A stretch of DNA of 64,000 bases, taken from assembly GCF_022458985.1 (NCBI RefSeq), contig NC_061771.1, positions 30,244,322 through 30,308,321 on the forward strand. Reading direction: 5' to 3'. A program made the position numbers and the translations under genes. The DNA comes from Mugil cephalus (taxonomy: Eukaryota; Chordata; Actinopteri; Mugiliformes; Mugilidae). Each line of letters opens with the position of its first letter. Position 1 is the first letter of the stretch. This document shows, in pieces, positions 1 through 48,500 of the stretch. Below the pieces are notes generated by a model, which worked only from the letters and a program-made list of their open reading frames with translations, was not told the origin of the DNA and made no database searches.

Positions 1-497
1 TATAGGTGTGTGCAGGTAGAAACATGTGTGTACAGGTGTGTACAGGTAGAAACATGTGTCTACAGGTGTGCACAGGTAGAAACAGGTGTGTATATGTGTG
101 TACAGGTAGAAACAAGTGTTTACAGGTGTGTGCAGGTAGAAGCATGTGTTTATAGGTGTGTACAGACAGAAACAAGTGTGTACAGGTGTGTGCAGGTAGA
201 AACATGTGTTTATAGGTGTGTACAGACAGAAACAAGTGTGTACAGGTGTGTACGGGTAAAAACATGTGTCTACAGGTGTGTACAGGTGTGCACAAGTGTG
301 TACAGATAGAAACAGGTACATACAGGTAGAAACAGATGTGTACAGGTATGTACAAGTAGAAACATGTGTGTACAGGTGTGTACAGGTATGTACAGGTAGA
401 AACATGTGTGTACAGGTGTGTACAGATGTCTAGAGGAGTCCACAGACGTGTACAGGTGTGTTCAGGTAGATACAGATGTGTACACATGTGTACAGGT
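1..497. repeat. Minisatellite at the 5' end of sos1 intron 9
   Basis: Tandem units built on tgtgtacaggtagaaaca with variants in acaggtgtg, mixed roughly 20-bp and 10-bp spacing, running to the left edge. On the sos1 strand it starts only a few nucleotides after the exon 9 donor at 505, which reads CTCAG|GTACATTA. The same GTACA occurs throughout the array. Weak open frames in it are by-products of the repeat. Confidence 0.9.
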
Positions 498-505
498 TAA
501 TGTAC

Positions 506-7061
<6,556 letters not shown>

Positions 7062-7870
7062 GGCCGCGGCGGGGTCTCCGCTGTCGGAGAAGAAGCAGCC
7101 GGACTCACTGGCTCGGGTCAGCGGTTTACATGAACGCCGTGAGGGGCTGTCCGGGTCCGGTAGGGCGGGTGAAGCGGGCAGCCTCAGAACATCCAGGACG
7201 ATCCTCCGGAACAGCTGCCGTCAATGCGACCATCCTCGGCCGCTACGCGGAGATCGGCTAAGGGCTAGCTCCGCGGCTAGCGGCTAACTGGTGGGTGTAG
7301 CTCGGCTCACCGGGATGAGAGCATGGTGGGTGGCCGGTACCGGACCACCAGGACCGGGATGACAGTTAGCTGTGGTTAGCCTGTTAGCATGTAGCCGCTG
7401 CTAAGGTCAGCGGCTAGCCTCCATCGGCGGAGGGTCCGGGGGGAGGGGGGGGTGGGGGGGGTAGGGGGGGGGCTGACAGGTCACCAACGGTCGGTCCGAT
7501 CAACGGCCGCTGTCTGACGGTTACCGGCTGATTGCTGCGGATCAACGGCTGCTCTGTGCTCACCGCTCCGCCGCTAACACCGACACACCGGCTGTGGCGA
7601 GGCGACTCTCTAACGCTGTCCCCCCCCCCAAGATGCTCTGAAATGTGTCCGCTCTTCCAGCTCTATCCCCCGGACTCCCACAGACACCGGCTCCGGTCCC
7701 GGGCCCCAGACGGTCACCGAGCTAACGGCGGGCGGTTGTTGTGACTCCGGTGTGAGGTACGGTAGACGGTGGAGCGGTTACGCATGCGCGGTGGACAGGT
7801 GCTGACGTACATGGGCGGGGCTCCAGAGTGGGAGGGTGCGTGTCACAACCGCGACGATGCGCATGCGCTA
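7062..7870 (-). promoter_or_regulatory. sos1 5' UTR and CpG-rich promoter region
   Basis: GC-rich, CpG-dense sequence directly upstream of the sos1 start codon, without transposons. It contains a long G-run at 7438-7472 on the plus strand that could form a G-quadruplex. No TATA box is obvious. The transcription start cannot be placed from sequence. Confidence 0.65.
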
Positions 7871-8995
7871 CTTTAGACTTGCTGATGGAGAGACACACAC
7901 ACACAATAAGTACACTTTTTTCATACTGCCTTATCTTGCACAACCTACTACCTACCTGTCTATATTTAATCATTTTTCCAATTATATTAATTTGCATTAC
8001 CAATTTCAGTCATTTTAACCATCCCACAATATACAGAATGTTGCTATTTTTATTTTAAAAATAAAAACAGTAATTCTTTATTCCTTCTGAATAAAGAATT
8101 GCTATTTTTTGGTTATTGTTTTTATGTATGTATGCATGATACATGATCATAGGTCTAGGTTGCTAGGGGATGTCCCATGATGCACCGAGCTCCTGTCCTC
8201 TGTCTCCTCTATCTTCTGAGATTCGGTTTCTTTTTTGTTTTTTTCGTTTTGCATGCATCTACCCTGGGACCCCAGGAAGACCCGCTGACTGCCCGAGCAT
8301 TCAATGGGGATCCTTAAAATAAGTAAATAAATAAATAGATCCCTTGTTCCTCCACTGTGTCAACGCGTCACTCGTGAGTTTATTTAAAAATGATAGTTAC
8401 TTTTAGGTTCATATCAAAAGACTAAACTAAATTGAACTATTCTTTAAATGTCATTTCTATTTCTTTTTTCATGAAAAGACAAAGAAGTAGTTTCTCCTTC
8501 GTATTTGTATCTAGTCCTGAATTGTTAGAGTAGAAGAAGAGGACCAAGATGTCTCCACATTGCCAGCGTTGCTTTGTTTACCCCAAATGGAGCAAATGTG
8601 CTCAGAAACTATGAATTTATTCCAACACAGAGGAGATTCACAACAAACCTCTACACCTCGTCGTCATCCATGAGTCTGGCTATTAATTACTGATTATTGA
8701 TTAGTGTGAGATCTGATCATCAGCGGCTTCTTCTAGAGATGAAGGTTGGACACATAAAAGTGAAATCTGTCAACATATAACGTCTTATCAATAATCCCTT
8801 TCATGTGTTGTCTGGTACCATCTCTTCAAAAGTTTATCGTCCTCTGATCAATAATTCACATGATGCCGATCGATGTGAGTTTATCTGGGATGAACCACAG
8901 AGTCGCCTTAGTTCACCGGACAAATATTTAATCATAATAAATACAATCAACCAGTTGCACCAGAAACCAGGAGACACTTCAGTCTGTTCATGTTT
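7871..8995. other. Intergenic, AT-rich, with a LINE 3' tail
   Basis: No gene seen. The segment 8255-8336 (ccctgggaccccaggaagac, then ggggatcc and a TAAA-type repeat) is typical of the 3' end of a teleost LINE. The rest is unique-looking AT-rich sequence. Confidence 0.55.
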
Positions 8996-9035
8996 ATTTA
9001 CAGCAGGGGGCGCAAGAGGGCACCAGAACGTCCAG

Positions 9036-9900
9036 AAGTATCAGAGGGTATCAGAGTAGCAGAGGGTATCGGAGGGTATGAGAAGGTATCAGAAGGTATC
9101 AGAAGGTATCGGAGGGTATGAGAAGGTATCAGAGGGTATCAGAGGGTATCGGAGGGTATGAGAAGGTATCAGAGGGTATCAGAAGGTAGCAGAAGGTAGC
9201 AGAGGGTAGCAGAGGGTATCAGAGGGTATGAGAAGGTATCAGAGGGTATCAGAGGGTATCAGAGGGTATCAGAAGGTATCAGAAGGTATCAGAGGGTATC
9301 AGAGGGTATCGGAGGGTATGAGAAGGTATCAGAGGGTATCAGAAGGTAGCAGAAGGTAGCAGAGGGTATCAGAGGGTATCAGAGGGTATGAGAAGGTATC
9401 AGAGGGTATCAGAGGGTATCAGAGGGTATCAGAAGGTAGCAAAAGGTAGCAGAAGGTAGCAGAAGGTATCAGAGGGTATCAGAAGGTATCAGAGGGTATC
9501 AGAAGGTAGCAGAAGGTAGCAGAGGGTATCAGAGGGTATCAGAGGGTATGAGAAGGTATCAGAGGGTATCAGAGGGTATCAGAGGGTATCAGAAGGTAGC
9601 AAAAGGTAGCAGAAGGTAGCAGAAGATATCAGAGGGTACCGGAGGGTATGAGAAGGTATCAGAGGGTATCAGAAGGTAGCAGAAGGTAGCAGAGGGTATC
9701 AGAGGGTATCAGAGGCAATGAGAGGGTATCAGAAGGTAGCAGAAGGTAGCAGAAGGTATCAGAAGGTATCAGAGGGTATCGGAGGATATGAGAGGGTATC
9801 AGAGGGTATCAGAGGGTATCGGAGGGTATGACAAGGTATCAGAGGGTATGAGAAGGTATCAGAGGGTATCAGAAGGTATCAGAGGGTATCAGAAGGTAGG
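9036..9900. repeat. 10-bp minisatellite, unit agagggtatc
   Basis: About 85 copies of a 10-bp unit, varying mainly between agagggtatc, agaaggtatc, agaaggtagc and ggagggtatg. Variants recur in fixed runs, so there is a higher-order pattern. The flank to 10030 holds decayed units. Intergenic between sos1 and tmem178. Confidence 0.95.
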
Positions 9901-10030
9901 CATGAAGAGTCTCAAAGGGTTTTGGGAGATATCACAGTATCGGGGGTATCAGAGGGCAGCAGGGAGTAGTACGGGTATCAGAGGGTATCAGGGTGTATCA
10001 AGGGGTAGTAGGTATCAAGGAGTGCATTAG

Positions 10031-11292
10031 GATTACATGAGCGGGCATAGACACCGACTCTGACTCCTTGATATGGTAAATAACACAGCACCAAGCAACA
10101 GTCATTCTGTTATCAGGGTCATATACCTGGACCACCTGGTCCACCTGGACCTCCCCTCACTTCCTGTGTGAGACAGACCCAGAGTCTGAGGGGGAAGGGG
10201 GTGAAGGTCTGGTTCTGGACCAAGAGTTCTGTGGTTGTATGTCGGTGATGTTCCTCATTCAGTTTGTGGTGGAGCTGGAGGCGACGGTAGAGTTTATTCA
10301 GTCATATAAATATTTTATATACATATAATTGTCTGGAGGAAGAACCCTGGGATCCAGACTTCCAGTGACTCCAGGACACGGTTCTGTGGTCAGGTGGGTC
10401 GTCCTCTGGGACCAGAAGATAAAACATCACGATCAGAAGATTCAAGTGATTCTGGTCCAGTCTGATCTCTGTCTCTGGTTTCTCAACATTTCAGCCTCCG
10501 TCATAGCTACAGTAACTCGGACTCCGTGGGTTGTGATTGACACAATTATTGACACCTGGACTAGAGGACAGGAGATGGACAGCTTGTCCATCAGTAGAAC
10601 TTAATGATTGTCTTCACCCTGATGCTTCAGCTCCTGAACATTAAAGGTTATACCAGAGATGAACTGAGAACTGAGGAACCACTTCACCCTTTAGACCCAG
10701 TGATTGATTTAGAGTCAGCTGAAACCAGAACCAGATCCACCACCACCACAGAGATAAACCAGACAGCAGAGATGATCAGCTGGAGAATCTGGACAGATGG
10801 AGCAGGTCTGAGGATTTGGATCATGTCAAAAGACCTGGACCAGGACTTCTACCAGGTCTGAGGACTAGGACCAAATCTGAGGACTGATCTCAGTGCTGTC
10901 AGTTCTGTTCAGTGGTTTTTGTTTATATCTGATTCTGGTTCTAGTCAAATCTCATTCAGTCCAGCTGATCTGTGGCCTTGACGCACCTGGACTCACCTGG
11001 ACCTGATTAATGATCAGCGGAAAACAAATCCTGATCACACCTGTACACGAGGACCAGGTGAGTCCAAGCCGGAGCTCAGCAGCAACTAGATTTACAGATT
11101 TCATGAACTAAACATTCACCTCGATTTTAGATTGAGTGTTTTTAAAGGTTCATTAACATCCACATCAGAAACGACTAATACTGGAGGAGTTCCTCCCAAA
11201 AACTGGCTTCAATGGATCTGCTCCAAACTTCTGTCATTAACCACTACTCCTCCTTTTCTTCCTCTTCCTCCTCCTCCTCCTCAGCCAGCTGA
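10031..11292. other. tmem178 3' flank, probable 3' UTR
   Basis: No coding region supported. A minus-strand AATAAA lies at 10293-10298, about 1 kb past the tmem178 stop, and could end its transcript. A CT-rich stretch lies at 11247-11285. Confidence 0.4.
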
Positions 11293-17529
<6,237 letters not shown>

Positions 17530-23905: not shown

Positions 23906-25263
23906 AAACTGAAAGATGTCCCCTTATTTTTTGCAAAGAAATATTCATTCATTTCACAATGTTCTAAATCCACTGGGAGTCTTGGGTTCCTTTGGGTCTT
24001 CTTGATTCATTTTGTTTTGTGGAGACGCGGCAGCGTTTAAGCTGCTAGCGCCACCTACCCTTAAAACTAAACACAGTCAAGTGCAAGTGTCCATGTGTGG
24101 GCCATTTTCTATTATGTTTAGAATTTACTGCGGGACAATTAAAAATGGACCACGAGCCACATTTGTCATACAGGCCATAGTTTGGACACCACAGATGTAG
24201 GACATAGCGCCAAGTAACTCCATGGCAATAACTTTTTATTTTATGCCTTTCTTTTTACTTGTGGTTCTTAAGACATAAGACATTGTTTATTTATCCAATG
24301 TATGGGAAATCACAGTAGTGCAGACATTCTGACAAGAATATATGCAAGAAATAATAACAAATTTAATGGAAAAATACAAAAATAACAACAGTGACAAATA
24401 TGTAGATGTATGTAAGAGTTTTTCCTTATGTGAAACTAAGCTACTGTGACCAAGCAATTTCCCATTAAGGTCTATCAAAGTCTAAGTCTAATGAACCTTG
24501 TATTAGTTCTTCAGACCACAAAAATGTATTTGTTGAATGAGTAAAGGATGGCCTCAGACTCTCTCTACACCAGTACATGTTTGACATAAAGAGCATTTAC
24601 GGGAGGATGATGACTGAATGCATAAATGTTCAGGTTTACTGAGTTAAAAGTCGAAGCTGCTTCTTCTCTGACTCTTTGTTCAGCAAACATTCCCACTTCC
24701 TGCTGCGCTAGAACATCTGACCTCGGTAATGAGAGCCTTCAGTCTCCATTTTTGTGAAACGTTTTCTCTCCGTCCACCCTCGGCTGTCCCTGTCGCCATG
24801 ACGACGCCCACGCCGCCGTCTCCTCGTGGCTCGTTAAGGCCGGGGGTGTCGGGGCGTCGGCGAGGTTTAATGAGGCCCAGTGGTGAAATGGTGGACGCTC
24901 AGCAGCTCGGCCTCATTAAACCTCGGCAGCAACGCGCAGGGTGACCTGGGCCCCCCAACCCCCACCCCCCCACACCTCTGAAACCCCACCACCCACCACA
25001 CTGCTGGGCTCAGATAATAAACCCCACCACCCCACCACCAGAAAATGAGGACGCCAAGGTTGACCACAGCCGACTCCCTGCAGGCAGATAACGATCTGAA
25101 CGGCTTCAAACTGCAGCTTCAGATGGGGTCAGGTTTAATGTGTTCATCGTGTTTAACGTGTTCATGAAGCTGCACATGAACGGCGCCATCTTGTGGTCAT
25201 GGCCTCATAGGTTTGTGTACACGAGTTTCAAGACGTAAGTGTCGTCACCAGTTACATCTATCC

Positions 25264-25296
<33 letters not shown>

Positions 25297-25429
25297 GTCG
25301 ATCTGTCTGTGTTGCCATGGAAACAGTGATGTAATATTAATGCATCCAATCAGGGAGCAGGTGAATTATTAATGACCTCCAGGTTCAGACAGAATATTCA
25401 GTTTGATGGACAGCTGGAGGGAAACATAA

Positions 25430-25462
<33 letters not shown>

Positions 25463-25690
25463 CAATAGAAATACAGACATGTCCAGCCGGGGGACAGGTG
25501 TCCAGTGAGGGGACAGGTGAGGACTGGTTTGGACTGAAAACGTCTTCATGTCTTTGAAGCACTGAAGCTGGAATCCATGTGGACAGAGACAGAGACTTCT
25601 AGGACTCTAAGAGAAGGACACGGAGGAGACGATATTTCTTCTTCTTCTTCTTCTTCTTCAATTTCCGGTAGATTTGAACCTCATCATCAG
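23906..25690. other. Intergenic with dispersed repeat fragments and microsatellites
   Basis: A fragment at about 24105-24200, with ggaccacgagccacatttg and catagtttggacacca, resembles the end of a hAT-like element. 24280-24490 looks like an AT-rich LINE 3' region. Microsatellites: (TATC)n at 25255-25295, (ATT)n at 25428-25459, (CTT)n at 25638-25660. No gene seen. Confidence 0.5.
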
Positions 25691-27779: not shown

Positions 27780-27965
27780 CTAAACATGCTGACGGTGGTA
27801 ACGATGGTAACTGTGCTAACGTTGCTAACGGTGGTAGCGATGGTAACGGTGGTAACGTTGGTAACGGTGGTTAAGGTGGTAAAGGTTCTAACATTGGTAC
27901 CGGTACTAACGGTAGTAACCATGGTAACGGTGCTAACGGTGCTGACGTTGGTAGCCCAGAACGGC
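27780..27965. repeat. Short array, unit ggtaacggtggtaacgttgg
   Basis: About 18-20 nine-base units (gctaacggt/ggtaacgat/ggtaacgtt) in the presumed first intron of the SOUL gene, about 75 nt after its likely donor. Confidence 0.85.
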
Positions 27966-31782: not shown

Positions 31783-31902
31783 TACAAAAACAAAGCTGAC
31801 GGTCAACTCTCCAACGTCAAATTAAGAAAAAAAAAAAAACACTAAAAACAACAGGAAGAAAGGGGCGGGGCTTCTGTGTGATGTCATCCAGGTCAGATCG
31901 GA

Positions 31903-34900
31903 TCAGATCAGATCAGCCACTGCAGAGAGAAAACAAACATCACAGGTCAGAGACTAACATTAAGCTAACGGTAGCTAATATGGCGCTTCCGTACAGGTTC
32001 CATGTCCTGTCTCTCTACGGCCTGTCTCTGTCTCCTGTACTTCCTGTCTCTGGCTCCTGTACTTCCTGTCTCTGAATCCTGTACTTCCTGTCTCTGAATC
32101 CTGTACTTCCTGTCTCTGACTCCTGCACTTCCTGTCTAACATGGTGTTTCCGTACAGGTTTCTCTGGTTCCTGTCTCTAGGGCCTGTCTCTGTCTCCTGC
32201 ACTTCCTATCTCTGACTCCTGCACTTCCTGTCTCTGGCTCCTGCACTTCCTGTCTCATGTACTCCGTCGGTTCTTCTCTGTTCCTGTCTCTGGCCTGCCT
32301 TCTGTCTACATGTGTTTCCGTACAGGTTTCTCTGGTTCCTGTCTCTAGGGCCTGTCTCTGTCTCCTGCACTTCCTATCTCTGACTCCTGCACTTCCTGTC
32401 TCTGGCTCCTGCACTTCCTGTCTCATGTACTCCCTGTCTCTGTCTCCTGTACTTCCTGTCTCTGGCTCCTGCACTTCCTGTCTAACATGGTGTTTCCGTA
32501 CAGGTTTCTCTGGTTCCTGTCTCTAGGGCTTGTCTCTGTCTCCTGCACTTCCTGTCTCATGCATTTCCTGTGTCTGACTCCTGCACTTCCTGTCTCTGTC
32601 TCCTGCACTTCCTGTCTCTGTCTCCTGCACTTCCTGTCTCTGGCTCCCGTCTCCGTACCGTTCATGGGCATCTCGTCGATCTGGGTGGAGTAGTACTGCT
32701 CGATGTCTCTCAGGATCCGAATGTCGTCGTTCTTCACAAAGTTGATGGCCACACCCTTACGGCCGTAGCGACCAGACCGACCAATCCTGGAGGAGGCGAG
32801 GGGTCGGAGGTCAGGTTACTGAACACCGGGCTGAGGGACTACTTCCTGCGTAGGGATACGTACCTGTGGATGTAGAGCTCTCTGTTGTTGGGCAGGTCAT
32901 AGTTGATGATCAGGGAAACCTGAGGGACGTCCAGACCACGAGCCCAGACGTCGGTGGAGATCAGAACGCGACTGAAGACACAGACACCGGCAGGTTTATC
33001 AATCAATCAATCAATCAATCAACAGACAAGTCATCAATCGGCGATCGACCAATCAGAGCGTTACCTGGCTCCCGATCTGAACTCCTTCATGATGGACTCC
33101 CTCTCTTTCTGCGGCATGTCTCCGTGCATCGACGACACCGTAAAGTTGGCCTCCCTCATCTTCTCCGTTAGCCAGTCCACCTGAAAAACAGCACACTCAG
33201 ACTACGCTTCCCACAATGCCGTGCTGACAGGACCCGTCAGAGTCAGGCCGTATAAAATGTTTAGTTTAGCATTTCTAGCAGCTGTGTTGTTTGCAAGTTT
33301 TTTAGTTGCTACCTTTAGCCCCTTTCAGACGTTATTTTTTTCTGTTAACTTTATCTTTTTATGTCTCAAAGTAAAACTCTACTCATTTGAGGATCATTAT
33401 CATAAAATTATTGGTCAGACTTTTCCACCTGCTGGATTTTGGTGTGTGCTGATTAGGAGCATTTTAAGAAAAGTACGAAAGCAAAGTGTCTTGTCTGACC
33501 TTCCTCTTGGTGTTGCAGAAGATGACGGCCTGTGTGATGGTCAGGGTGTCGTACAGGTCACACAGAGTGTCGAACTTCCACTCCTCTCTCTCCACGGCCA
33601 CGAAGAACTGCTTGATGCCCTCCAGAGTCAACTCATCACTGAGGGCGAGAGACATCCAGTCAGACAGAGGGAGGGGGAGAGGGAGGGGGAGGGAGAGGGA
33701 GGGGGGCGTCTCTCACCGTTTCACCAGGATCCGGATCGGGTCGGTCATGAACTTGTTGGTCATCTCGAGGATCTCATGAGGCAGGGTGGCGCTGATCAGA
33801 ACCACCTGAGTGGCCGGAGGCAGGTACCGGTACACGTCGTAGATCTGCTCTTTGAAGCCTGGACAGTAAGAGGGAACCACAACCACGTCAGTGACGACCA
33901 AGAACCACAAACAGAACCTCACGAACCACCTACACCAGACTCCATTCACAGTTTAGTCTATTCTAGACGATCAGACAGCTACAGGTGTCTTCAGGTGCGA
34001 CTCACCTTTGTTGAGCATCTCGTCGGCCTCGTCCAGAACCAGCATCTTGATGGCTCTCGTCCTCAGACTCCTGCGACGAATCATGTCTGAAGAAACACAA
34101 CCACACACACTCCAGTGAACATCACGTTCCGAGCAGACGACCAATCAGATATCACCTGAAGCCCGCCTCCCGCCAGGGGGAGGAGTCAGTCACCGGGCGT
34201 TGTCGTGACAACCCACCAAACACTCGTCCAGGTGTGCCGGACACCACGTGCTGGCCGTAGTCCAGTTTGCGGATGTCCTCTCCAACGTTGGTTCCTCCGA
34301 TGCAGGCGTGACACTGGACGTTCATGTAGTCTCCCAGAGCCAGCAGCACCTGGGCACAGACGACCAATCAGAAACAGGCCGCGCATGGTGGCGATGCTAA
34401 TGGAAATGCCAGTACAGGTACTAATGGTGACACTAATGTACAGACCAGTGGCAATGCTAATGGCGATGCTAATGGACAGACCAGTAGCGATGCTAATGGT
34501 GATGCTAATGTACAGACCAGTAGTGATGCTAATGGTGATGCTAATGTACAGACCAGTAGTGATGCTAATGGACAGACCAGTACAGGTACTAATGGTGACA
34601 CTAATGTACAGACCAGTAGTGATGCTAATGGTGATGCTAGTGGACAGACCAGTGGCAATGCTAATGGTGATGCTAATGGACAGACCAGTAGTGATGCTAA
34701 TGGACAGTCCAGTCGTGATGCTAATGGTGATGCTAATGAACAGACCAGTAGTGATGCTAATGGACAGACCAGTAGTGATGCTAGTGGACAGACCAGTAGT
34801 GATGCTAATGGTGATGCTAATGTACAGACCAGTAGTGATGCTAATGGTGATGCTAATGGATAGACCAGTGGTGATGCTAATGGTGATGGTAATGGATAGA

Positions 34901-37733
34901 CCAGTGGCAATGCTAATGGACAGACCAGTGGCAATGCTAATGGTGATGCTAATGTACAGACCAGAAGTGATGCTAGTGGTGATGCTAGTGGACAGACCAG
35001 TAGTGATGCTAATGGACAGACCAGTGGCAATGCCAATGGTGATGCTAATGGATAGACCAGTGGCAATGCTAATGGTGATGCTAATGAACAGACCAGTAGT
35101 GATGCTAATGGACAGACCAGTAGTGATGCTAGTGGACAGACCAGTAGTGATGCTAATGGTGATGCTAATGTACAGACCAGTAGTGATGCTAATGGTGATG
35201 CTAATGGATAGACCAGTGGCAATGCTAATGGTGATGCTAATGTACAGACCAGTAGTGATGCTAATGGTGATGGTAATGGATAGACCAGTGGCAATGCTAA
35301 TGGACAGACCAGTGGCAATGCTAATGGTGATGCTAATGTACAGACCAGAAGTGATGCTAGTGGTGATGCTAGTGGACAGACCAGTAGTGATGCTAATGGA
35401 CAGACCAGTGGCAATGCCAATGGTGATGCTAATGTACAGACCAGAAGTGATGCTAATGGTGATGCTAATGGACAGACCAGTAGTGATGCTAATGGACAGA
35501 CCAGTGGTGATAAGAGTGGTGATGCTAACTGTGATGCTACCTTCTGAATCTGTCCGGCCAGCTCTCTGGTTGGAGCGAGGATCAGCGCCTGGGTCTCCCT
35601 CACCTGCAGACAGGAAGCACATCACATATTACACACCTGTTCAGGCACAACGAGACAGATCCAACATGGCCGACACTGACCTGGATGTCCAGACACTGCA
35701 GCACCGACACACAGAAGGTGGCCGTCTTTCCTGTTCCGGACTGGGACCTGAATGTAGCACAGATCAGCTGTTAGACAAGAGGGGGGGTGGGGAGGGCAGA
35801 GGACAATCAGCTGATTTGAGACTTACTGAGCGATGACGTCTCTGCCTTTGATGATCTGTTTGATGGCTCTCTGCTGGATGGCCGACGGCTTCTCGAAGCC
35901 TGAAACGCAAAACGTGACCTTTGATTTGATTTTATATGACAGATATGTCAACAATAACAACAACATGGGAAAAGGAAGAGGAAAAAATAATGAAAAAGGC
36001 GGGTACAGTAGACAAAAAATATCTAATTTACAGATCCTGTAAATAATGTATATTTGTGGTGGGACTGAAGAAAAAGAAATCCAATAAATAATTGATCTCG
36101 GTGATTTTTAATCATAGATACTCACAAACAGGCTAATAACAGACCGCAGATCAATCAGACAATCCAGTAGAGATGCTAATGGTGATGCTAATGGAAAAAT
36201 CAGAGTTGATGCTAATCATGACGCTAATGGTGATGTAATGGACGGACCAGAGGCGATGCTAATGGTGCTGCTAATTAAAGACATCATTTGCTACCACGTT
36301 AATCCAGACGATCGTGCTCTTGAACACCTGATGAACTTTATCATCAATTACGCAAAATTCTTTATTCACAATCAAAAATTTGCTAATTCAGTATCTAAAT
36401 TCGCTCCTTTTTTACTTGAACTAAAGTCTCTGTTTAACTCTCTTTATTTGATCAATAATAAAAAAAGAGCAATAAATTACTGGACAATTATAAAAAAAAA
36501 ATTTTCCCCCAAAACCTCTGACCAACCCTCTATTAATGACTACTTTGTTTCTCTTTTTTACAAAATATTATTTTTATTTTATGTGTCTTGGCGTATTTTT
36601 CATCCTTGTACACATTTCTGACTTTATTTTATTTTCAAGCCTTATTATATAATTTACTCTATCACGTTACTGTCCCTTTGTGTTTGCCTGGTGCTGCTCC
36701 ACATAAATGTACCCTGTTGATTCTGTAAAATTTGTTCAATAAACTTTTTTTTTTAAAAAAAGAGTGGTGATGCTAATAGTGACGCTAATGGCGGTTTTAT
36801 AATAGATAACATGTCAGTGCTGCACACACTGAGGATGCTAATTAATAAAAATGTTTAAACAAATCTGATATTAGTTTATTTAACGTCTTCAAAAATCACC
36901 AACCGGTGAATGAAAACATCAACAGGCCAACTTTATGTCCCATCCATCAACCCAGATCTCCTCCGAGCTATGGCGCAACTGCGCACTAGCGTTAGTACAG
37001 GAGGCTAATGCTAACAAACATGATAAACTTTAGGGTTACCAGACGGCGAACAGCCCCCTTTTTTTTTGGTGTGACTTGTCCCCACGGCTAAAGCTGTCCC
37101 TGAAAATGTCCCCGATTTTAGCGAAAAAACAACATTTTTAACGGAATCCGCCGGATAAGAAGCGCTAGTAGTGAACATGTTGAGCACAGAGTAAAACTAT
37201 CATGGTAGCTCATTGGTAGCTATTAACAATACAGACATTACAGTTTAAATACGAATAAATATGTCAGAATTAATTAAACCGTAATTGTCCACGTTTCTTC
37301 ATTTCATCTTGATAACATCATTTTTTTTTATCTCCGAGCTGTAAATATACCCGGATTTCATTTCAGAAATCTGGTCACCTCAATAAACCCCCGACTTAAA
37401 AACACACCATATTCTTAACTCTAAACATGTTTATTTTTTAATCTTTATCTAATTATAGGACCAGGTTTCATGAAATTGATCCATTTAATGTCTCCAAAAG
37501 CTCTGCGGAGATGAACCGTTAGCATTAGCATCGTGTGCTAACTCCTCCACCACGGAGGCCGCTTGGATCCCCGGCCTACCGTAGGCGTAGATGCCGCGGA
37601 GCAGGTCCTCCCGGAGCCCCATGGTGTCGAACGTAGGGGTGACGTCCACCTCCTCGCTGGTCTCGAACTCCACCTTGGTCATGTCCTCCTCCTTCAGGAG
37701 CCTCTTCCTGCCCTGCGTCCCTCCAGCAGCCAT
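31903..37733 (-). CDS. eif4a3: eIF4A3, DEAD-box RNA helicase of the exon junction complex
   Basis: Twelve coding exons: 37580-37733, 35827-35899, 35681-35747, 35541-35603, 34217-34349, 34006-34086, 33717-33858, 33500-33638, 33065-33180, 32864-32971, 32659-32786 and 31903-31919. They total 1221 nt, 406 residues, with all phases consistent. Helicase motifs in order: SQSGTGKT (Walker A), [21 protein letters not shown] (DEAD box), [18 protein letters not shown] and [11 protein letters not shown]. The C-terminus is VADLI, its last residues coming from a 17-nt coding exon. The protein clamps spliced mRNA in the exon junction complex with MAGOH, Y14 and CASC3 and is needed for nonsense-mediated decay. 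Introns 4 and 11 are almost wholly minisatellites; intron 1 contains an L1 tail. AGQIQK replaces the AVQIQK I recall in mammals. Confidence 0.97.
32010..32651. repeat. Minisatellite in eif4a3 intron 11, rich in ACAGGAAGT
   Basis: Units of about 23 bp (tgtctctgactcctgcacttcc) with a higher-order period near 172 bp, marked by ggtgtttccgtacaggtttc starting near 32150, 32315 and 32490. On the eif4a3 strand the array begins within about 10 nt of the exon 11 donor. The nonamer acttcctgt occurs about 15 times by eye. Confidence 0.92.
34376..35540. repeat. 12/24-bp minisatellite filling eif4a3 intron 4
   Basis: About 95 units of 12 bp in two forms, gatgctaatggt and the pair gatgctaatg-gacagaccagtagt, with occasional three-unit variants. 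It starts at the first bases of the intron on the gene strand (GTAGCATCACAGTTAGCATC) and ends about 25 nt before exon 5. Open in several frames on both strands. Confidence 0.95.
36160..36272. repeat. Outlying copies of the eif4a3 intron 4 unit (left part)
   Basis: About eight gatgctaatgg-type units in eif4a3 intron 1. They appear to be continued at 36762-36800 after an inserted LINE end. Confidence 0.8.
36273..36765 (+). mobile_element. 5'-truncated L1-type LINE, 3' end with poly(A)
   Basis: A reading frame from about 36250 to 36621 encodes sequence typical of the L1 ORF2 C-terminus ([20 protein letters not shown], then [17 protein letters not shown]). A 3' UTR, AATAAA at about 36739 and an A-rich tail follow. 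The frame is intact over this part, so the insertion is probably young. It lies in eif4a3 intron 1, antisense to the gene, and interrupts a minisatellite. Confidence 0.75.
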
Positions 37734-37930
37734 CTTTCTCGAAGATTTTAATTTCGGACGACGACTCGAAACTTTCCGCGCGCCGCTCGGTACAGCTGCT
37801 AACTGCTAAACGCTAGCAACGGGAGAAGAAAGACCGCCGCATGTGTCGCGCGGGTGACGTCAGCAGCCGGCGACGAGACGCGGGGCGTCATAACATACGG
37901 GCACTGGGTGTGGTTTGTCCGGTTTGTAGC
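37734..37930 (-). promoter_or_regulatory. eif4a3 5' UTR and promoter
   Basis: GC- and CpG-rich sequence directly upstream of the eif4a3 start codon. No TATA box seen, as expected for a housekeeping gene. Confidence 0.55.
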
Positions 37931-38497: not shown

Positions 38498-39063
38498 TTT
38501 ATTGTCGCTGATAAAAACACTGGAACACGTTCACAGCCTTAAAATATTCTTTAATTTCACCCACGTCGGGGACACAGTTCATTTGATGACTGATCGATGA
38601 CCTGATCAGGGATCTGTACATCTCCAACCGCTGAACCCACCGCTGTCAATCAGTCATCAACGGTCCACTCTGAACATCCTCCTCTGTGTGTGTCCTCTGT
38701 GTGTGTCCTCTGTGTGTTTCATGTTTCACTGTGACGACTCCGTGTACTTTATTACACTCAGCCTGGTCCCGATGCGTCCGGCTGATCGGTTCTGATGCAG
38801 GAACATGATGACGACGACGTGCGAATTGTCGATTTGGCACTTGGAAGATTTCTGCTGAGATTTTTTTTTATTATCTCAACATAAAAAAAAAAGAAAAAAA
38901 ACACACTCGCTAACACACGTGAACACACACACACACAAACACACATTACAATCCTCATCTACTTTCAGTCGCAGCGTGTTTTTTTGTTGACATTGTCATA
39001 ACAAACGAACAAAGAGTAAACGAGTTGAAAACAAAATAAAACTGATGAAGTCCAGCTGAGTGT

Positions 39064-39110
39064 GAGTGTGTGTGTGTGTGTGTGTGTGAGTGTGTGTGTG
39101 TGTGAGTGAA
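39064..39110. repeat. (GT)n microsatellite
   Basis: Interrupted run of about 20 gt units in the srf 3' UTR. Confidence 0.9.
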
Positions 39111-39140
39111 GTGTGTTTTTGGGCTCCGATCATGTGACTC

Positions 39141-42100
39141 TCAGTCCTCTTTTGATTGGTGGACGTCCAGACTGACGACCTGCAGCTCCGTCAGGTTGCT
39201 GCTGCTCTGTTGACTGATCACCATCTAAACAAGAACAGAATGATAATAAAAATAAAGTATAAATATATATATGTGTGATAATATAATCAATAGTTGATCA
39301 TAGTGTGTGTTGATCAGTACCGGGTGCAGCTGGACCGCAGACACAGGGATCTGAGCGGCAACTGGAGGGAGAGACGTTAGGAAGACCTGAGAGACGGCAG
39401 CTAAAAGACACAAACGTTCATTAGTCATCAGAGCGGATCCGTTAACGGGCAGAGACTCACGTGATAATTAGCATACGAGTTAAATGGACTCGGGTACCGG
39501 GGTCGTGTGACTGAGCGTGACCCGTGGATGAGAAGGTGTTGAGGACGGTGAGGCCGCCATCGGCCAGCGACGGCGTCGGTGTGGCGTACATCACCGTGTG
39601 ACCGCCGGGTAACATCATGTGACCCGATACAGAGGAGGAGGAGGAGGAGGAGGAGGAGGTGGAGGTGGAGACGATGGAGACGGGAAGACTGGCTGCAGAG
39701 ACGAGAGAGAGAGAGAGAGAGACAGGATGATCTGAAACGTATAGTAGTGCACGGTCAAAGATCTACCCAAAGTACAAACCAGGGACCCAGAATTAGTTTG
39801 AAAAACAACAAAACAAACTCTGGATTCCACTTCCAGGTCTCGCTTATTGTTTTATTTCTGCTATTAGTTGTGTTCCATAAAGAACTACACGGATATGACT
39901 GTGATGCAAAATATTTACGACCTTTTTAAGTCTCATCCTGTAACGACTCCTCCCAAACACTAGGTGGCACTGTGTCTTTTTTTTTTTTTTTACCAGTCGG
40001 GTTAATTGTTGTTTCTACTTCCTGGTTCACTTTCAAGCGTGACGTCTACTACCGAGACGACCGATCGCAGCTCTCGTTCTCTGCGCCGCCACCATGCAGT
40101 CCCATTTACGGGGAGGAGGTGGGCGTTAGCTACGCGATGAGCCTTTGTGTCGATTAGCGCAGCCTTCGATTAGCCCTTCGAAATAAAAGGCGAGTGACGA
40201 GGAGGCGGGGGCTATGTTCTCACCTGAAGAGGAGGCGGGGCAGTGCATGTCAGAGCTGCTGTGGATGGTGGAGCCCTGCTGACTGCTGGTCTGGACCTGG
40301 ATGGTCTGTAGCTGCTGAGAGACTCCAGACCCTGATGAACACATGAACATGGACGTGAACCAGGAGGCTCCAGGTGTGAACGCACACCGGGAGTCACGTT
40401 CACAGGCTCTGACCTGACAGTGAAACGGTGGCGGGGAGGCGGAGCAGCGTGGTCGACTGAGTGGGCGTGGCGTGCAGCGTGGCAGCGGGGGCCGGGGCCA
40501 CGGGGCCCTGGATGGTCAGGGACTGGCCCTGCAGCTGGCTGAGGGGGATGGTGTGCGTGCCGGGGGGCAGCGAGGCACCTGTGGAGAGGTGGAGGGACCG
40601 GGGGGTGGAGCCAGAGGCAGGTAAGCTGTGCACAAGCAGGAAGAACAAGCCGAGGGGGCCGATCTAAACCCCGCCCACCTACCTGACATCAAGGTGAAGC
40701 CTCCAGGGAGGACGACGCCCGCCGACGTCTTCAGCAGCGTCCCGTTGGAGGAGGAGGAGGAGGAGGAGGAGGAGGTGGAGGACGAAGGCTGGGCGGAGCC
40801 GGACAGGCTGAAGGACGGTTTGATCAGGTCCTGCAGGGACACGGAGACGGACTGAGCACAGAGGGACAAAACGCCGGTCTGTCCGTCCCCTTCGTCTCCC
40901 GGCGCCACCTTAAGCTTTTATGGTCGACCAGTCGACGATTATTTTTTTTGCGAAATCACACACCAGCACGAAGCAGAGTCAACATTAGCTTTAAGGTTTG
41001 ACGATGGTACATTCATCTTCTAATGAACTTTGCAGCTTGTACCAGAATTTCTTTAAATGTGATGTGTAAATTAAAATGAAGGCACAACTCTGACCTTTAA
41101 CACTTTTAACACATAACCTCTGCGTGCTAAGGCTAATGAAACCGTTAATGTTAGCCTTAAGCTAATGATGATGATTACAGCTATATATATATATATATTT
41201 ATATAAGTAAGAGGTGTTAGCAGCTAACTAGCCAAATAGCTTAATTACTGAGACGACTGTTCCTCTTCGTCAGAAGCTGTGTTTCCTTTTCAGACGCTCG
41301 TGCTTCACCATGAAAGACGAGTTCTAGAGATTAACGCCACTGAGCGTCAAGGACAGAAAAGCAGTGGGAGGTTCAGAGAGAAAAACCAAGCTTCAAAAAA
41401 CAGTAACAGTCGATGCGATCGTGACCAGTCAGCTACTCTGCGTTAGTCTTCCCCCGGTGAGAAACATCTCTGGCTCGTTCTGTAACAACTCCACCCAAAA
41501 CACTCGTCGCTGTTGGGTCTTTTTTTGCCAGTCATGTTAACTTTTTCTTTCTGCTTCCTGTTTCACTTTCAGCATCGGAGGCCGACTCTTGTTTGAGGAA
41601 CGCGATTCGTACAAAATGTCTGTTATCTCCAAACCTCACGGATTCTCCACTGAAAAAGCCGGAAACACTAAAGAGGAAAAAAAACACTACCACTAACTGT
41701 AACCGCGTAGTTACTTGTTTCTGGGGAGGTGGTCGTCAGCTGTGACGCCGGTGTCTGCGTTACCTTGGCGCCCTCGGGGAGGCCCTCCGCCTCGGAGACC
41801 TGGTAGGTGAGGTCGGTCTCCTCGAAGCCCGTGGCGCTCATCCTCTGGTCGGTGGAGGGGTCGGAGCGCGGCGGCGAGTCGGGGGAGTTGAGGCAGGTCT
41901 GGATCAGGGCCTTGCCCGTCTCCGACGTGATCATCGGCTGCAGCTTCCTGGTGGCGAAGGTGTAGACGTGACCCGTCTCGCTGGCGACCAGCAGCAGCAC
42001 CTGGGTCCCGGTCAACGTGGACAACTCGTACGCCTGCAGGGAACAAACACAGGGCGACCGGTTCGATCACACTCTGGACCGAAACCGTGCGCCGAGCACA

Positions 42101-42770
42101 GACCGTTGGCCCACGCAGGACCGGATGGCGAGGAAGGAAAAAACGCATCAAACAAACAAAACACCACATCCCATTTTATTTCAAACAAACAAACAAACAA
42201 AAACAGACTGATGTGGAGTGAAATGAGGAATGTACGGACTTAGACACTGGGGGAAACCAAACAACCACAAACACATGTCCCAACACAGGAGAACCGGCTC
42301 ATCAGGGAACCCAGCATCTCTGACAGAACAACACCACAGAAGAAGAAGTGATGTGGCCTCAGGTGTCTACCTGCCAGGTGTCTCACCTTCTTCATGATGC
42401 CGGTCTTCCTCTTGCTGAAGGTGGTGTAGCGCCTCAGCTTGTTGTCGATGAACTCCATCTTGATCTTGACTCTGCCCCTGGTCTTCTTTCCGGGTTTGAC
42501 TCCCGGTACCCCGGGGCTGAGCCCACCGTAACCCCCGGCCATCAGGCCTCCGGAGGAAGAGGACTGACGCTCGGGGTCCCTGTTGCTCCTCACCCGCTTC
42601 ACGCCCCTCCTGTCCCCGCCAGAGCCCACCGTGTCCTCGTCATCCCCGGAGTCCGAGTCCTGGTCGGAGCCGCTGTAGACCACCTCGGTGCTGAACTCCC
42701 GGTCCTCGAACTGGCCTCCGTCCGCCTCGGAGTTCATCGGTCCCGGTCCGGATCCGGTTCTGGTGCCCAT
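39141..42770 (-). CDS. srf: Serum response factor (MADS-box transcription factor)
   Basis: Eight coding exons: 42387-42770, 41764-42033, 40683-40830, 40414-40578, 40224-40331, 39522-39692, 39321-39400 and 39141-39224. They give 469 residues in phase. The MADS box (about residues 95-150) is complete: KPGKKTRGRVKIKMEFIDNK, then RRYTTFSKRKTGIMKK, then AYELSTLTGTQVLLLVASET. The SAM extension and GFEETDLTYQVSE follow. The C-terminal activation part ends with QIPVSAVQLHP and SSNLTELQVVSLD. SRF dimers bind CC(A/T)6GG and, with ternary complex factors or MRTFs, drive immediate-early and muscle/cytoskeletal genes. Exon 3 could begin 21 nt earlier at an alternative in-frame AG. Ser-rich and Pro-rich stretches replace parts of the mammalian middle region. 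Which teleost paralogue (a or b) this is cannot be decided here. Confidence 0.95.
39935..40030 (+). repeat. Short dispersed repeat, copy 1 of 3
   Basis: In srf intron 5. Holds tgtaacgactcctcccaaac, a tggcactgtgtc block, a T-run, ccagtcgggttaatt and acttcctggttcact. Sister copies are at 41480-41575 and, inverted, 48655-48735. Probably a SINE or MITE. Confidence 0.65.
41480..41575 (+). repeat. Short dispersed repeat, copy 2 of 3
   Basis: In srf intron 2; aligns with 39935-40030 through tgtaacaactccacccaaaa, gggtcttttttt-gccagtc and cttcctgtttcactttca. Confidence 0.65.
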
Positions 42771-43129
42771 ACCCGCCCCGTTCCCCCCGCAGCGCCCCTC
42801 CCCTCCACCCCGGACCTGCCCGGAAGCTTCCTCCTCTCAGCGGTGAGAGCAGCAGCTCCGCCCCGCCGCCCGGATGTCCCAATCCGGGCAAACTCGGCTC
42901 TGTGCGCCGCTGCCTCAGCGGCTAACGGAGCTAAGTGGCTAACAGCTAACCGTTACTTTAGCAACAAGTCCAGCCGAGTGTCCCTCATCGAAGACGACGG
43001 ATCATCCACGTAGAATTGGAGAAATGTTTTCAATAAACTGACTGAATTCAACCAGAAATAGGACAAAAAGTTACAAAGTTATGTTTCTCCGGGAATCCGC
43101 GACACCCGCCCCCCTTAGATCACTCCGCG

Positions 43130-43139
43130 CCACATAAGG
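43130..43139. promoter_or_regulatory. Near-consensus CArG box upstream of srf
   Basis: CCACATAAGG, one base off CC(A/T)6GG, 360 nt upstream of the srf start codon. Confidence 0.5.
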
Positions 43140-43367
43140 AAATGACGGGTAACACCCACAGGTATCCGTCCGCGAGAAAAAATAGGGATTCACTTTGGGC
43201 TTATTATCCCCGTGTTCCTGCTTTAAAACATCAACCATTTTACCAGAAACGACACGCTAACGGATTCCGTGCCGTGTTTCATAGGAACGGTGACAAGTTA
43301 ACGCAGGTTGTGCGCAGTGATACCAAGGCCGACGTGTTTGTATGACATGTGGAGGGACTACTTTTCT

Positions 43368-43377
43368 CCTTTTATGG
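43368..43377. promoter_or_regulatory. Consensus CArG box (serum response element) upstream of srf
   Basis: CCTTTTATGG is a perfect CC(A/T)6GG site, 598 nt upstream of the srf start codon. The SRF promoter of mammals is known to be autoregulated by CArG boxes, so a similar loop is plausible. Confidence 0.6.
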
Positions 43378-43499
43378 TGCAGCCTCTTCCTCATATGGTC
43401 AACGACTTCCGGCTAAGCGACCGAAAACACGTGGAGAGAAGAAGAAACTACGGAAACCCGTTTGTTGCCGGGACCTTTTTAATATCTACAGTAGAACAT

Positions 43500-45400
43500 A
43501 AAATAATAATAATAATAATGAAAAGAAGTTTAACGAAGTCGAAATTATGAGGCATGAAGGAGCAAAAACAGTTCAATAAAATAGAATAGAATAGAAGTAG
43601 CTTGTATACAAACATACACAGACATCAACATAATATAATAATGTACTAACATGCATGTTCGTGCAAAAAAATACAAGAAATACGGCTGTGCAGAGTGAAA
43701 AATAAAACCGCAGGAACAACATGAGTGCAAAAAAGTCTGTCTGAGTGGTAGTGGTTCAGTTAACCAGACATTTTTAAAAGGGAACATTACACTGTGGCGT
43801 TGGACAGTCTGATGGACCTCCTGAACCTCTCAGTCCTGCAGCGTAGTGAGAGAAATCTCCCACTGATTCTGCTTCTCTGCCCGTCGAGGATGTCATGAAG
43901 GGGGGTCCCAGGTGTTGTCCAGGATGGACTGCATTTTGTTGCAAGTGTGTCTCTCAACACCAGTCCCCAGTGAGTCCAGACTTCTGCCAATCAGATCAAA
44001 GACCAAGGCTTCTTAACCAGTCTGTCCAGTCTTTTAGAGTTCCCACAGGAGAGCATTGGCAACCAGCGCCAGGTCAAGACCATAAAACCAAGTCTGAACC
44101 ATGGAACCCCGGTCTAACCCTAGAACCAGGTCTTATCCCAAGATTTTATTTTGACGACCAACAGAAAACAAGCTGATCAATGGATCGTGCAGATTAATCA
44201 ATGAAGTCAACGGAACGCATGAATGGAATAAACAAAGCAAATAAACAACCCCGCCCCCAGTAGCTGTGGGGTCAGAGGTGAGACAGCCGATGGTTATCCG
44301 TCTGAAACAGGATTTGTAAACACACCTGATGACCTGAGATCAGCTGATCAGACCTGGCAGCTCCCTCCTGAGCTAAGCTAGCAAAGTTCATCCAAGGTCA
44401 AACTCATTCAACACGGATGTATAGAGCAGAGATATACTGGTTTACACTTCCACCGTATTTAACTACGCAGTAAAGCGCGCTTCAAAAGGAAATTAAGAGA
44501 AGCAGTGATTAGGAAATTCTCAGTGTGTAGAATATAAAATTTTTTGTTGTTTGCATTTTCATTTGATCTCAGATCATTTTTGTTTGATTTAGTTGTGTTT
44601 TAGTTGCAATGAGTGTATTATATTAAGTTTTAAGTTTGAAATATGAATACTTGGCCTCTAGTAGGAATAACCTTCACTGCTGTGAGGGCGAATGGGGATC
44701 CATGATAAACAAATAAATAAATAAATTCAACATGGATCAAAACTAATCATGAATGAGAATCACTGATCGGACCAGTCAGAGGTCACTGAGCTCGGTTATC
44801 AATCAACTCATTAATAACAGCTGGAATAAATAATCATTTAAACTTTTTAACGAAGAACTGGAGATGTTTAAAATAAAATGTACAGACACAAAACAAACGA
44901 GAGCTAGGAAATAAAATAAAATGAAAAATATTACATAACACAGCACACTCTGACTTGAAAAAGATATTGAGAGTCAATGTGTGGTACATAACAATCCCAT
45001 TTCTCCAAAAGCCGCAGGGTAAAGGTAATTTTCTCCATCACACAGATAGTTCCCAATATCCTTTTTCCTTTTTCAGTAGCTACCATGAAACTCTTTAAGA
45101 TGCTGAGGCCTTCTGGAATTTTTGACAGATGCAGGGAAGTGAATGCGTTACATTCGACGTCTCAGCAATTAGTTTCCCCACATCTCTCTAGAAAGATAAA
45201 ATATGTGGGCAAGACCAAAAAAACACAACCTTGGACTTCTGGTTGGGTATAACAAAAATCAGACCAGGTTCTTCCAACGGAAATCAAGACAAAGAGGAAG
45301 ACGGAGAAGTTGCGGTAACTTCTGACAGTGACTCTCTGCAGGTACCAGACTCGATCTGATCAATAAACTCAGCAGGGAACCACCGATCAATCAGCCAATC
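43500..45400. other. Intergenic, several dispersed repeat fragments
   Basis: No gene seen. 43780-44050 resembles a widespread fish retroposon 3' region (block gttggacagtctgatggacc). 44655-44732 is a LINE-type tail (gcgaatggggatcc followed by AAATA units). 44880-45240 is AT-rich and unassigned. Confidence 0.45.
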
Positions 45401-45474
45401 AGAGCTGTGCCGACCTCTGACCCCTCCCTGCTGTCTGCTGCTTCCACGCCAGTTCAGCTGAACCAGGATCAGCT

Positions 45475-45494
45475 TCTATATTTAACCCAGATTA
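45475..45494 (+). promoter_or_regulatory. Possible TATA-like box and CRX/OTX-type site before the opsin
   Basis: TCTATATTTAAC lies about 85 nt upstream of the start codon, followed by AGATTAG, a variant of the OTX/CRX site (TAATCY on the other strand). Both are common in photoreceptor and pineal gene promoters. Short motifs, so weak evidence. Confidence 0.35.
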
Positions 45495-45566
45495 GAAGCG
45501 GAGAGACGTTTCTTCAGAGCAGAGAGCACGGCTACTACATACAACGCACAATACACAACATACAAC

Positions 45567-48500
45567 ATGTCGTTCAGCGGCGCCGCCGGACGTGCCCTCC
45601 CCTGGAGGAACCACAGCTTCATCCTGGGAGGAGGAAGAGACCCTCCTCTGTCTGACCAGGGAGAAACCATCATCGGAGTCTATCTGCTGCTGCTGGGTCA
45701 GTACACAATATAAACAACACTATAAACAACACTACTTACACACTAGATACACACAGGATACACAGACTCTGTGCACTGCAGTTACTGTTACTCCAGATGG
45801 AAACTTCTCATGGATTTTGTTGTTTTTCTGCCTGATGTGATAACATGGACACACACGGTGCTGCTTAAAGGTTTTTATTCCTTCTCAAGGACTCAAACAT
45901 CAGATGATTTTTACAGAAATCCTAGAACCACACAAAGAACAAACAAATCAACCAGAAATGTTACGCGTTTGTATGTGTTTATTCAAGTTTTGTTCGTATC
46001 TCCTTGAAACTAAATGTTTGTGGTAACTGCTGATCAGTGGTCTACAACAGTTTCCTCTCATCAACTGATGCTACAACATTTCTACTGGATGAAGGTCAGG
46101 ACATTGACTTGTTCCTAAACATTTATCTGGTTCTTCTGGAGAACCACTGGTGTTCTTGGGCTCCTTGTCTTCCTCCATGACCCAGTTTCTCTTCACATTC
46201 AGCTCATGGACTCATGTCCTGACATTTTCTTCTTTTCAGAGTTCACTGGTAGAATTCACAGTTCATTGGTCCATCAATGATGAGCAGATGCAGTAGAACA
46301 GGCCCAAACCACGACATTAGCGCCCCCATGTTTTATGGAGGGATGAGGTTCTGATGCTGGAATGCAGTGTTGGTTCATCTCCAAACATTTAACCCAAACT
46401 ATTCTACTCTGGTCTCATCTGTCCACTAAACATTGTCCAGATGTTCTTTGTGGACAGAGAGCAGTGTCTTTGGTTGTTGAGTGGATTCATCAACATTAAC
46501 ATCAGCCAATGTGAGAGAGGCCTTTAGCTGCTTAGAAGTTCCCCTGGGTTCCTCTGGTTCCTCTCCCACTATGATGGAGGGATGTTTGTTGGTGGACCAC
46601 TCCTGTGGAGGGGAACAGTCGTCTTCAGTCTGTCTGACTCTCTGTGGATTATTTGTGGCTTCCAGACTCTTTAGAGATGGTTGTGGAACCTTTTCCAGCC
46701 TGATGAGCAACAACAACTCTTTTTATCTGAGCTCCTCACAAAGCTCCTTTGATCTATTCTCATCATTCAAGTCATCGGTCCCATCACATTGATGGAAACA
46801 CTTCTGAAAACACGGACTCTGGTTTAACCTTAAAATTAACTTGTAATCCTAGAGATGCACCTCACATATATGTAATATTGTCTCGTTTTCAGAATAAACA
46901 ACCGTATAATACTTCTTTTTCATGTGTTTAATTGGGTTCTCTATATCTACTTTCAGGACTTATGAAGAAATGTAGAAAATTCTGAAGGAGGTTAATATTT
47001 AGAAGCAGCCTGTTCAGATTCAGACTTTCACTGGTCTCTGGTTCCTTCAGGATAAAAGTTCAGACTTGCCTTTGTTCTCTACATGAACCCCTGTGTTGTG
47101 CTGCAGGCTGGTTGTCCTGGTTTGGAAACAGCATCGTCCTCTTCGTCCTTTACCGCCAGAGAGCCTCGCTGCAGCCCACCGACTACCTGACCTTCAACCT
47201 GGCCGTCTCCGACGCCAGCATCTCTGTGTTCGGCTACTCCAGAGGAATTATCGAGATTTTCAATGTCTTCCAGGACAGTGGCTACCTCATCTCGTCCATC
47301 TGGACCTGCCAGGTACGGAAACTGAGACTCACCTGAGCTTCATCTTTGAGACTCACCTAGGACTCATTTGGAACTCACCTGGGACTCACCTGAGACTCAC
47401 ATAGGACTAATTTGAGATTCTCCAGAGACCCATTCGAGACTCTCCTGAGACTTGCCAGAGACTCATTTGAGACTCATCTAGGACTTACTTGAGATTCATC
47501 TAGGACTCATTTGAGACTCCCCTGAGACTTGCCTGAGACTCATTTGAAATTCTCCCGAAACTCATTTAGGACTCACCCGAGACTCAGTTGAGACTCTGCT
47601 GAGACTAACTTGAGACTAACTGAGGAGTGTCTCAGATGATCAGAAACTCCATCTTCTGATGTCTGTGACTCATTTATGCTGTGTCTCCTGTAGGTGGACG
47701 GTTTCTTTACGCTGGTGTTTGGTCTGAGCAGCATCAACACTCTGACAGTGATCAGCGTCACGCGCTACATCAAAGGCTGTCACCCAAGCAAAGGTTTCCG
47801 TCTGAACTCCATTAACAGGCTTGTAATGACCAGGTGTTCCTCGGGTCTTCCTCTAAACATGAACGTTTATGTTGCAGCGCGTCACATCAACCGGACCAGT
47901 GTGTTCGTGTGTCTGCTGCTTATCTGGATCACGGCCGGATTTTGGTCTGGAGCTCCGTTATTTGGCTGGGGCGGCTACAAAGGCAGGACGCCATGAAATT
48001 AAGTTCTGTTGACGGTGGTGTGTTCGCTGACCTCTGAAACCTGACCTGTGGTTCTCTGCAGATCGAGGATACGGCACCTGTGAGATTGACTGGACTAAAG
48101 CCAACTACTCGAGCGTTTACAGGTCCTACATCATCTGCATCTTCATCTTCTGCTTCTTCGTGCCGGTGCTCATCATGCTCTTCTGCTACGTGTCCATCAT
48201 CAAGACAGTGAAGAGAGGCAACGCTCTGTCGTCAGAGGGCGACCTGACCGACCGCCAGAGGAAGATCGAGAGAGACGTGACCATTGTGAGTGTTCGAGAC
48301 CACATGTTCTTCCAGTGAGGAGCTTCAGCGGCATGTAACGCCTGGACAGTGTTAGTGTCAGTGACCAGTGTGAATGAAGATCGACATTTATGAGTTAGTT
48401 GTACCCACAGTTTGGGCTTCTGCTTTAGGTCATAATATCAAAGCTGACGTGTACCTCCCCAGAAATGTGACATAAGAGCTTTTAATTGGTTTCCTCTTTA

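Follow-up and report, generated by a model that had tools for sequence, protein, structure and literature searches.

Tandem arrays crowd exon edges, chiefly just downstream of 5' splice sites, in a minisatellite-rich domain of Mugil cephalus

Arrays and genes in the window

The window, a stretch of 64,000 nucleotides (C2:30244322-30308321), belongs to a genome of 634.8 Mb assembled in 24 contigs. It carries sos1, tmem178 and eif4a3 genes on the minus strand, an opsin gene on the plus strand and a SOUL gene, and 15.7% of it is minisatellite.

Six introns hold an array at their donor. In sos1, a 30-nt unit is repeated from 8 nt past the donor of intron 9 (505): the array occupies 1..497 and extends past the window edge as far as about -467, for a total of 965 nt. 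Intron 2 of the same gene has a weak array of 11-nt units (5060..5121), 3 nt past the donor at 5124. In tmem178 the intron 3 array (11938..12716) reaches 16 nt into exon 3, the intron being 11535-12700; it repeats the exon end together with the donor, and GCAGGTA occurs in it at 14 places. The array of eif4a3 intron 4 (34389..35528) fills the intron (34350-35540) from 12 nt past the donor to 39 nt short of the acceptor, and that of intron 11 (32021..32647, intron 31920-32658) leaves 11 nt at the donor and 101 nt at the acceptor. In opsin, where 47312 is the last exon base, the intron 2 array (47322..47624, intron 47313-47693) begins 9 nt past the donor and stops 69 nt short of the acceptor. 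The original prediction had named these six donors, and rightly so: relative to the intron, the arrays start between -16 and +12 (8, 3, -16, 12, 11 and 9), and the five minus-strand exon ends fall, by translation, where it had placed them. The weaker case it saw in sos1 intron 1 disappeared: that intron has no array at the threshold used and none among weak repeats.

Other repeats of these genes vary in position. A small repeat of 2.5 copies sits 8 nt past the donor of opsin intron 1 (45705..45734, plus strand, intron 45697-47106). The minus-strand array of tmem178 intron 1 (13569..14569) begins 2063 nt from its donor and is not donor-adjacent; the SOUL-gene array (27792-27953) lies 5' of the earliest coding exon that could be modelled. 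In sos1 beyond -8251, outside the window, an array begins about 20 nt past a donor whose next exon was not located; it stays uncounted.

Two ideas about the units fared less evenly. Each had been said to include the first five to nine bases of its own intron. GTACA, GGTAAC and TAGCATCAC do recur in their own arrays (35, 12 and 40 times), but GTATA is found only twice, and GTACGGA three times in the array of eif4a3 intron 11 and never in that of opsin. The first 12 intron bases are contained beyond chance in two of the six arrays, sos1 intron 2 and tmem178 intron 3. The units had also been called unrelated: no two of the six arrays are alike, yet eif4a3 intron 4 shares its unit with an array of intron 1 (36172..36275, minus strand), which lies 1304 nt from its own donor, so that only one of the two is at a donor.

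Arrays at exon edges inside and outside repeat-dense domains

We counted arrays in two regions, both domains of one genome in one assembly: an 84-kb stretch made up of the window and a 10-kb flank at either end, and a 40-kb stretch at the end of contig C11, picked for its repeat density after 3.5 kb of it (locus L023) had already been read. Exon ends were set by translation, with a gene predictor trained on homology-supported exons followed by hand curation; the srf, wasf and eola models rest on these steps, and the entry 'myo1b' denotes the 3' portion of myo1. The boundaries of eif4a3 introns 5 and 11 and of myo1 intron 11 were corrected by hand before counting, and opsin intron 3, whose boundary is unsettled, was dropped beforehand. 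Introns lacking a located next exon (sos1 beyond -8251 and the last myo1 intron), UTR arrays and SOUL arrays were left out. The resulting 112 introns are all GT-AG. Arrays were called with Tandem Repeats Finder (score at least 80, unit at least 7 nt). To place them, we removed array bases and located the insertion point in the remaining intron, the donor zone being its first 16 positions.

Arrays are present in 29 of the 112 introns (39 arrays). In 20 of these 29, no more than 15 nt separate the donor from the start of the first array, and in 10 the same holds for the acceptor and the end of the last array. With array bases removed, 18 of the 39 arrays fall in the donor zone where 1.78 are expected (p=2e-14) and seven in the acceptor zone, again against 1.78 (p=0.002); the remaining 14 are mid-intron. 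This amounts to 10.3 arrays per kb at donors, 4.0 at acceptors and 0.40 mid-intron; outside the curated gene spans, the two regions have 0.37 and 1.34 per kb.

The donor excess is no product of the introns that first drew attention: without the seven of the original prediction, 12 of 31 arrays are donor-zone against 1.55 expected (p=1.4e-8). Shuffling within genes gave a mean of 2.78 and a maximum of 11, and none of 20,000 rounds reached 18; permutation within the same intron raised the mean to 7.14, with again none of 20,000 reaching 18. Nine of the 13 gene entries contribute donor-zone arrays, with at most five introns each, and at least 14 such arrays remain whichever entry is dropped. Each region contains nine. 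The C11 region alone yields 9 against 1.95 expected (p=5e-5), and the window region stripped of the previously named introns 3 against 0.37 (p=0.005). At the strictest setting (score at least 300, length 150) these become borderline for C11, 3 against 0.90 (p=0.054), and 1 against 0.11 (p=0.10) for the stripped window region. All seven acceptor-zone arrays come from C11 and none from the window, so that enrichment at the acceptor end is confined to one region; its count has p=0.017 under within-gene permutation. Tandem arrays thus crowd exon edges, chiefly just downstream of 5' splice sites, in the minisatellite-rich domain that contains the window.

In control introns from other loci, the pattern is absent. 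Minisatellites make up 32% of the C11 region, 2.2% of a 10-kb stretch close to the C4 end and 0.64% of other loci totalling 224 kb (L023 included). As control, we used 199 introns predicted in 41 of 43 myosin and SLC6 loci (L009 and L023 excluded), which were fetched around compact genes and are thereby biased against expanded introns; the C4-end locus yielded two introns, the seven GTACAG loci none. The control introns hold no donor array of score at least 80 and a single weaker repeat, of score 60, that begins 13 nt past the donor. Of their repeats scoring at least 30, one in 55 is at a donor against 2.2 expected. As a genome-wide rule the donor excess is therefore not supported, and the phenomenon belongs to repeat-dense domains. 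The C11 region is about 0.1 Mb from its contig end, the window 4.2 Mb from its own.

Some observations were made in passing. L009 (C21:279157-281187) has a whole myosin head domain in a single open frame of 1974 codons and is apparently intronless there. In an SLC6-gene intron, degenerate GGGTTAGGGTG repeats (L050, 3028-3461) resemble interstitial telomere sequence. Three tandem CAGGTRAG words match the genome 873 times, overlaps counted, whereas the reversed word matches 48 times. Among the matches listed, every such donor-word array lies near the middle of the 54.5-Mb contig C1, in the interval 23.8-28.5 Mb. C1 is longer than the other contigs looked at (16-35 Mb), and the cluster perhaps marks an old chromosome fusion junction.

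Junction copies and kinship of units

What the arrays contain varies. The first 12 nt of the intron are found beyond chance in 8 of the 20 donor arrays (combined p=6e-8) and unmatched in 12; the exon end is found beyond chance in three (combined p=0.37) and unmatched in 17. The notion that every unit carries the donor is rejected on these counts.

Three arrays, those of tmem178 intron 3 and of introns 5 and 7 of myo1 (a myosin-I gene), do repeat the junction: 16 of 16 junction bases recur within the array, so that a duplicated, junction-bearing segment is found in 3 of the 20 donor-adjacent arrays. Copying is clear at myo1 intron 7, where four extra copies comprise 35-36 nt of the coding exon end (at least 85% identity) plus the donor, one of them being exact across 30 exon nt. 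It is likely at tmem178 intron 3 and at myo1 intron 5, which has eight copies of 9 exon nt with the donor. The proposal that arrays arise by repeated copying at the donor thus keeps the donor excess and the junction copies at a few introns, but most units lack the donor and a genome-wide rule is not supported. Array homogeneity showed no polarity towards the donor (7 of 13, p=0.51).

Intron positions of myo1 were compared with 29 other myosin loci, mostly of other classes. The intron 9 position is common to many of them. The intron 7 position is common to three, with two reading through, that of intron 12 to two, with 20 reading through, and those of introns 5 and 8 to none; since most of the compared myosins belong to other classes, absence there does not show gain.

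By structure, the arrays are minisatellites: head-to-tail copies of units of at least 7 nt, as called by Tandem Repeats Finder. One sequence spread across many introns, as in introners, was not found: there are eight like pairs among 65 arrays, four within one gene, two in a repeated element of C11 and two between genes. A single pair joins two donor-side arrays, on different chromosomes: sos1 intron 14 (window -6490 to -6443) and pi4kb intron 6 (E11 10606-10771, position 1 being C11:27888000) are 83% alike over 48 nt, with a CACCTGTCT-type unit. The other donor-adjacent units have nothing in common at E 1e-6. The C11 element itself occurs at 1792-2412 and 24773-25686 of the same coordinates, 85% alike over about 600 nt; both copies hold an identical pair of minisatellites, and it is probably a repeat-bearing mobile element.

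Origin of the donor-side arrays

Arrays might arise anywhere in non-coding sequence, with no seeding bias, and grow until exons or splice signals stop them. Introns here are typically short: the 83 array-free ones have a median of 98 nt and a lower quartile of 78 nt, the shortest being 61 nt, and introns of about 80 nt leave arrays nowhere else to be. Many arrays do span their intron from near the donor to near the acceptor (eif4a3 intron 4, otud4 intron 6, selenbp1 intron 3, pi4kb introns 4, 6 and 7, myo1 intron 12 and prune1 intron 3). eif4a3 intron 4 has 51 nt of non-array sequence in 1191 nt, beside neighbours, introns 2 and 3, of 79 and 77 nt; eight introns, counted as remainder plus a single unit, fall below the 61 nt of the shortest array-free intron, so the original intron sequence there has been overwritten. 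Random placement within the same introns already accounts for 7.1 of the 18 donor-zone arrays. Moreover, short introns alone (150 nt or less) have little donor excess once space is accounted for: 10 arrays against 8.2 at score 30 or more (p=0.22), and 9 against 5.65 at score 50 or more (p=0.018). Much of the donor closeness in short introns comes from arrays that fill the whole intron. Over all introns, the acceptor excess was not significant in the space-corrected test (p=0.09 to 0.18).

Unbiased filling does not, however, reach the longer introns. Those with more than 150 nt outside arrays have four donor-zone arrays against 0.39 expected, and with splice signals excluded 4 of the 11 that bear arrays have one on the donor side against 0.30 (p=1e-4). 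Small donor-side arrays (30-67 nt, 2.5-4.5 copies) occur in introns of 556, 715, 799 and 1410 nt, two of which (715 and 799 nt, myo1 introns 1 and 2) also carry long arrays deeper in; and control introns show no such pattern. Nine of the 22 weak arrays (2.4-6 copies) begin no more than 11 nt from the donor. Where introns lack a strong array, seven weak ones are donor-side against 2.67 expected if splice signals are not excluded (p=0.002), and the excess is not significant if placement is allowed only from +7 to -31 (5.76, p=0.10). The share of array-bearing introns is flat with length, 18 of 68 with at most 150 nt outside arrays and 11 of 44 longer ones, which fits a seeding rate set by the number of intron ends and not by the number of bases, with the caveat that overwriting shortens members of the first class. 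We regard filling with no seeding bias as doubtful: the long-intron excess and the small donor arrays are unexplained by it and favour seeding at exon edges, at about even odds.

Selection may instead have retained donor-side arrays because they aid exon or intron definition. Splicing does seem to act on the arrays. Those ending within 21 nt of the acceptor are richer in pyrimidines on the sense strand than the others (0.69, n=14, against 0.53, n=25; p=7e-4). By a simple weight table, 15 of the 20 donor arrays contain no decoy that matches or exceeds the real donor in score, and GGTRAG occurs in the intronic arrays of both regions twice in sense (one array) and 32 times in antisense (six arrays), a strand skew that suggests loss of arrays with sense decoys. 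Pyrimidine-rich acceptor arrays and the scarcity of strong decoys are signs of a splicing filter on arrays. Donors with arrays are also slightly weaker (mean score 1.49 against 2.56), a trend only (p=0.06). These features nevertheless speak of the purging of harmful arrays rather than of a benefit; donor-side units differ from one another, save the pair of sos1 intron 14 and pi4kb intron 6, and 5 of the 20 arrays hold decoys equal to the real donor. Positive retention is accordingly improbable.

An error of assembly or gene models could also put arrays at exon ends. The exons come from our own predictor and hand curation, and some introns of two models may be wrong: otud4 as listed has 10 internal stops, though the exons flanking its intron 6 continue in frame, and opsin with its shortened exon 3 has one. 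Yet all 112 introns are GT-AG, and spliced sos1 and eif4a3 proteins align without gaps at array-bearing junctions to the human SOS1 and eIF4A3 chains. PI4KB aligns to the human chain over its solved parts, introns 5 and 6 being in the uncovered part; its model has five surplus residues at intron 9, an array-free intron. The spliced models of tmem178, selenbp1, myo1, prune1 and pi4kb give open frames, and the donor count is 17 without otud4 and likewise 17 without opsin. Such an error is quite unlikely as the source of the pattern. Still less probable is that the base composition of intron starts prompts the finder to report arrays there: some donor-side repeats are of low complexity (eif4a3 intron 7, pi4kb intron 8), but the same finder with laxer thresholds gave no donor excess in control introns (1 of 55 against 2.2). 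Least credible is delivery of arrays or introns by a mobile element, introner-like or a repeat-bearing transposon: four C11 arrays outside the counted introns are indeed part of a repeated element present in two copies, but only one of the eight like pairs joins donor-side arrays and the other donor units are unshared, so a shared element as their source is rejected, the one pair between two genes notwithstanding.

We therefore favour, with a probability of just under one half, tandem duplications seeded at exon edges in repeat-dense domains, their growth then being filtered by splicing; the seeding bias is what we infer. Small tandem duplications would arise preferentially at exon edges in minisatellite-rich domains, and some would span the junction and carry copies of exon end and donor over into the intron. 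Such duplications would be tolerated because the first, exon-attached donor still yields normal mRNA. Arrays could then expand, overwriting the intron up to the sequence needed for splicing: a few bases at the donor and, where the unit does not itself provide one, a pyrimidine tract at the acceptor. More tentatively, and at less than even odds, junctions and donors above all may be duplication hot spots in certain domains, where exon end and donor are copied and gene-private minisatellites rewrite introns with the coding sequence intact.

Related phenomena are known. Hypervariable minisatellites of vertebrates cluster subtelomerically; the C11 region, which is 32% array and lies about 0.1 Mb in from the end of its contig, resembles this, whereas the corresponding distance for the window is 4.2 Mb and the C4 end is 2.2% array. 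Introns can be created by tandem duplication of exon sequence bearing AGGT. Here too duplications cross the junction and copy the donor, but existing introns are enlarged and no new intron is shown. Introner elements fill entire introns with repeated sequence, as arrays do here, but our units are mostly unrelated between introns. In Sparus aurata, intronic minisatellites are described in introns 1 and 3 of growth hormone and intron 1 of myostatin-2 (PMC3045353); these are likewise variable-number tandem repeats within teleost introns, but in the parts of that paper available to us they concern single genes with no donor link claimed, in contrast to a positional excess across many introns. Human minisatellite VNTRs also have units of at least 7 nt, are common in genes and, when intronic, can cause differential splicing; in the portion consulted of that survey we found no analysis of splice-site distance, and 'splice' is absent from its main text (PMC8096271). 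Nothobranchius minisatellites are centromeric, from the part of the source seen (PMC2688266). Among the matches listed in the open-licence literature, by title and start of abstract, nothing concerned arrays at intron donors. Intronic minisatellites in fish genes are thus already known, and among the papers listed we found no match for donor-site arrays.

tmem178 intron 3 and myo1 introns 5 and 7 would make it possible to study, in a natural setting, how the spliceosome passes over numerous copies of its donor close by. Should the donor excess hold genome-wide in such domains, it would tie a process of minisatellite birth to exon-intron junctions, and it would give introns a route to grow and be rewritten with the protein unharmed.
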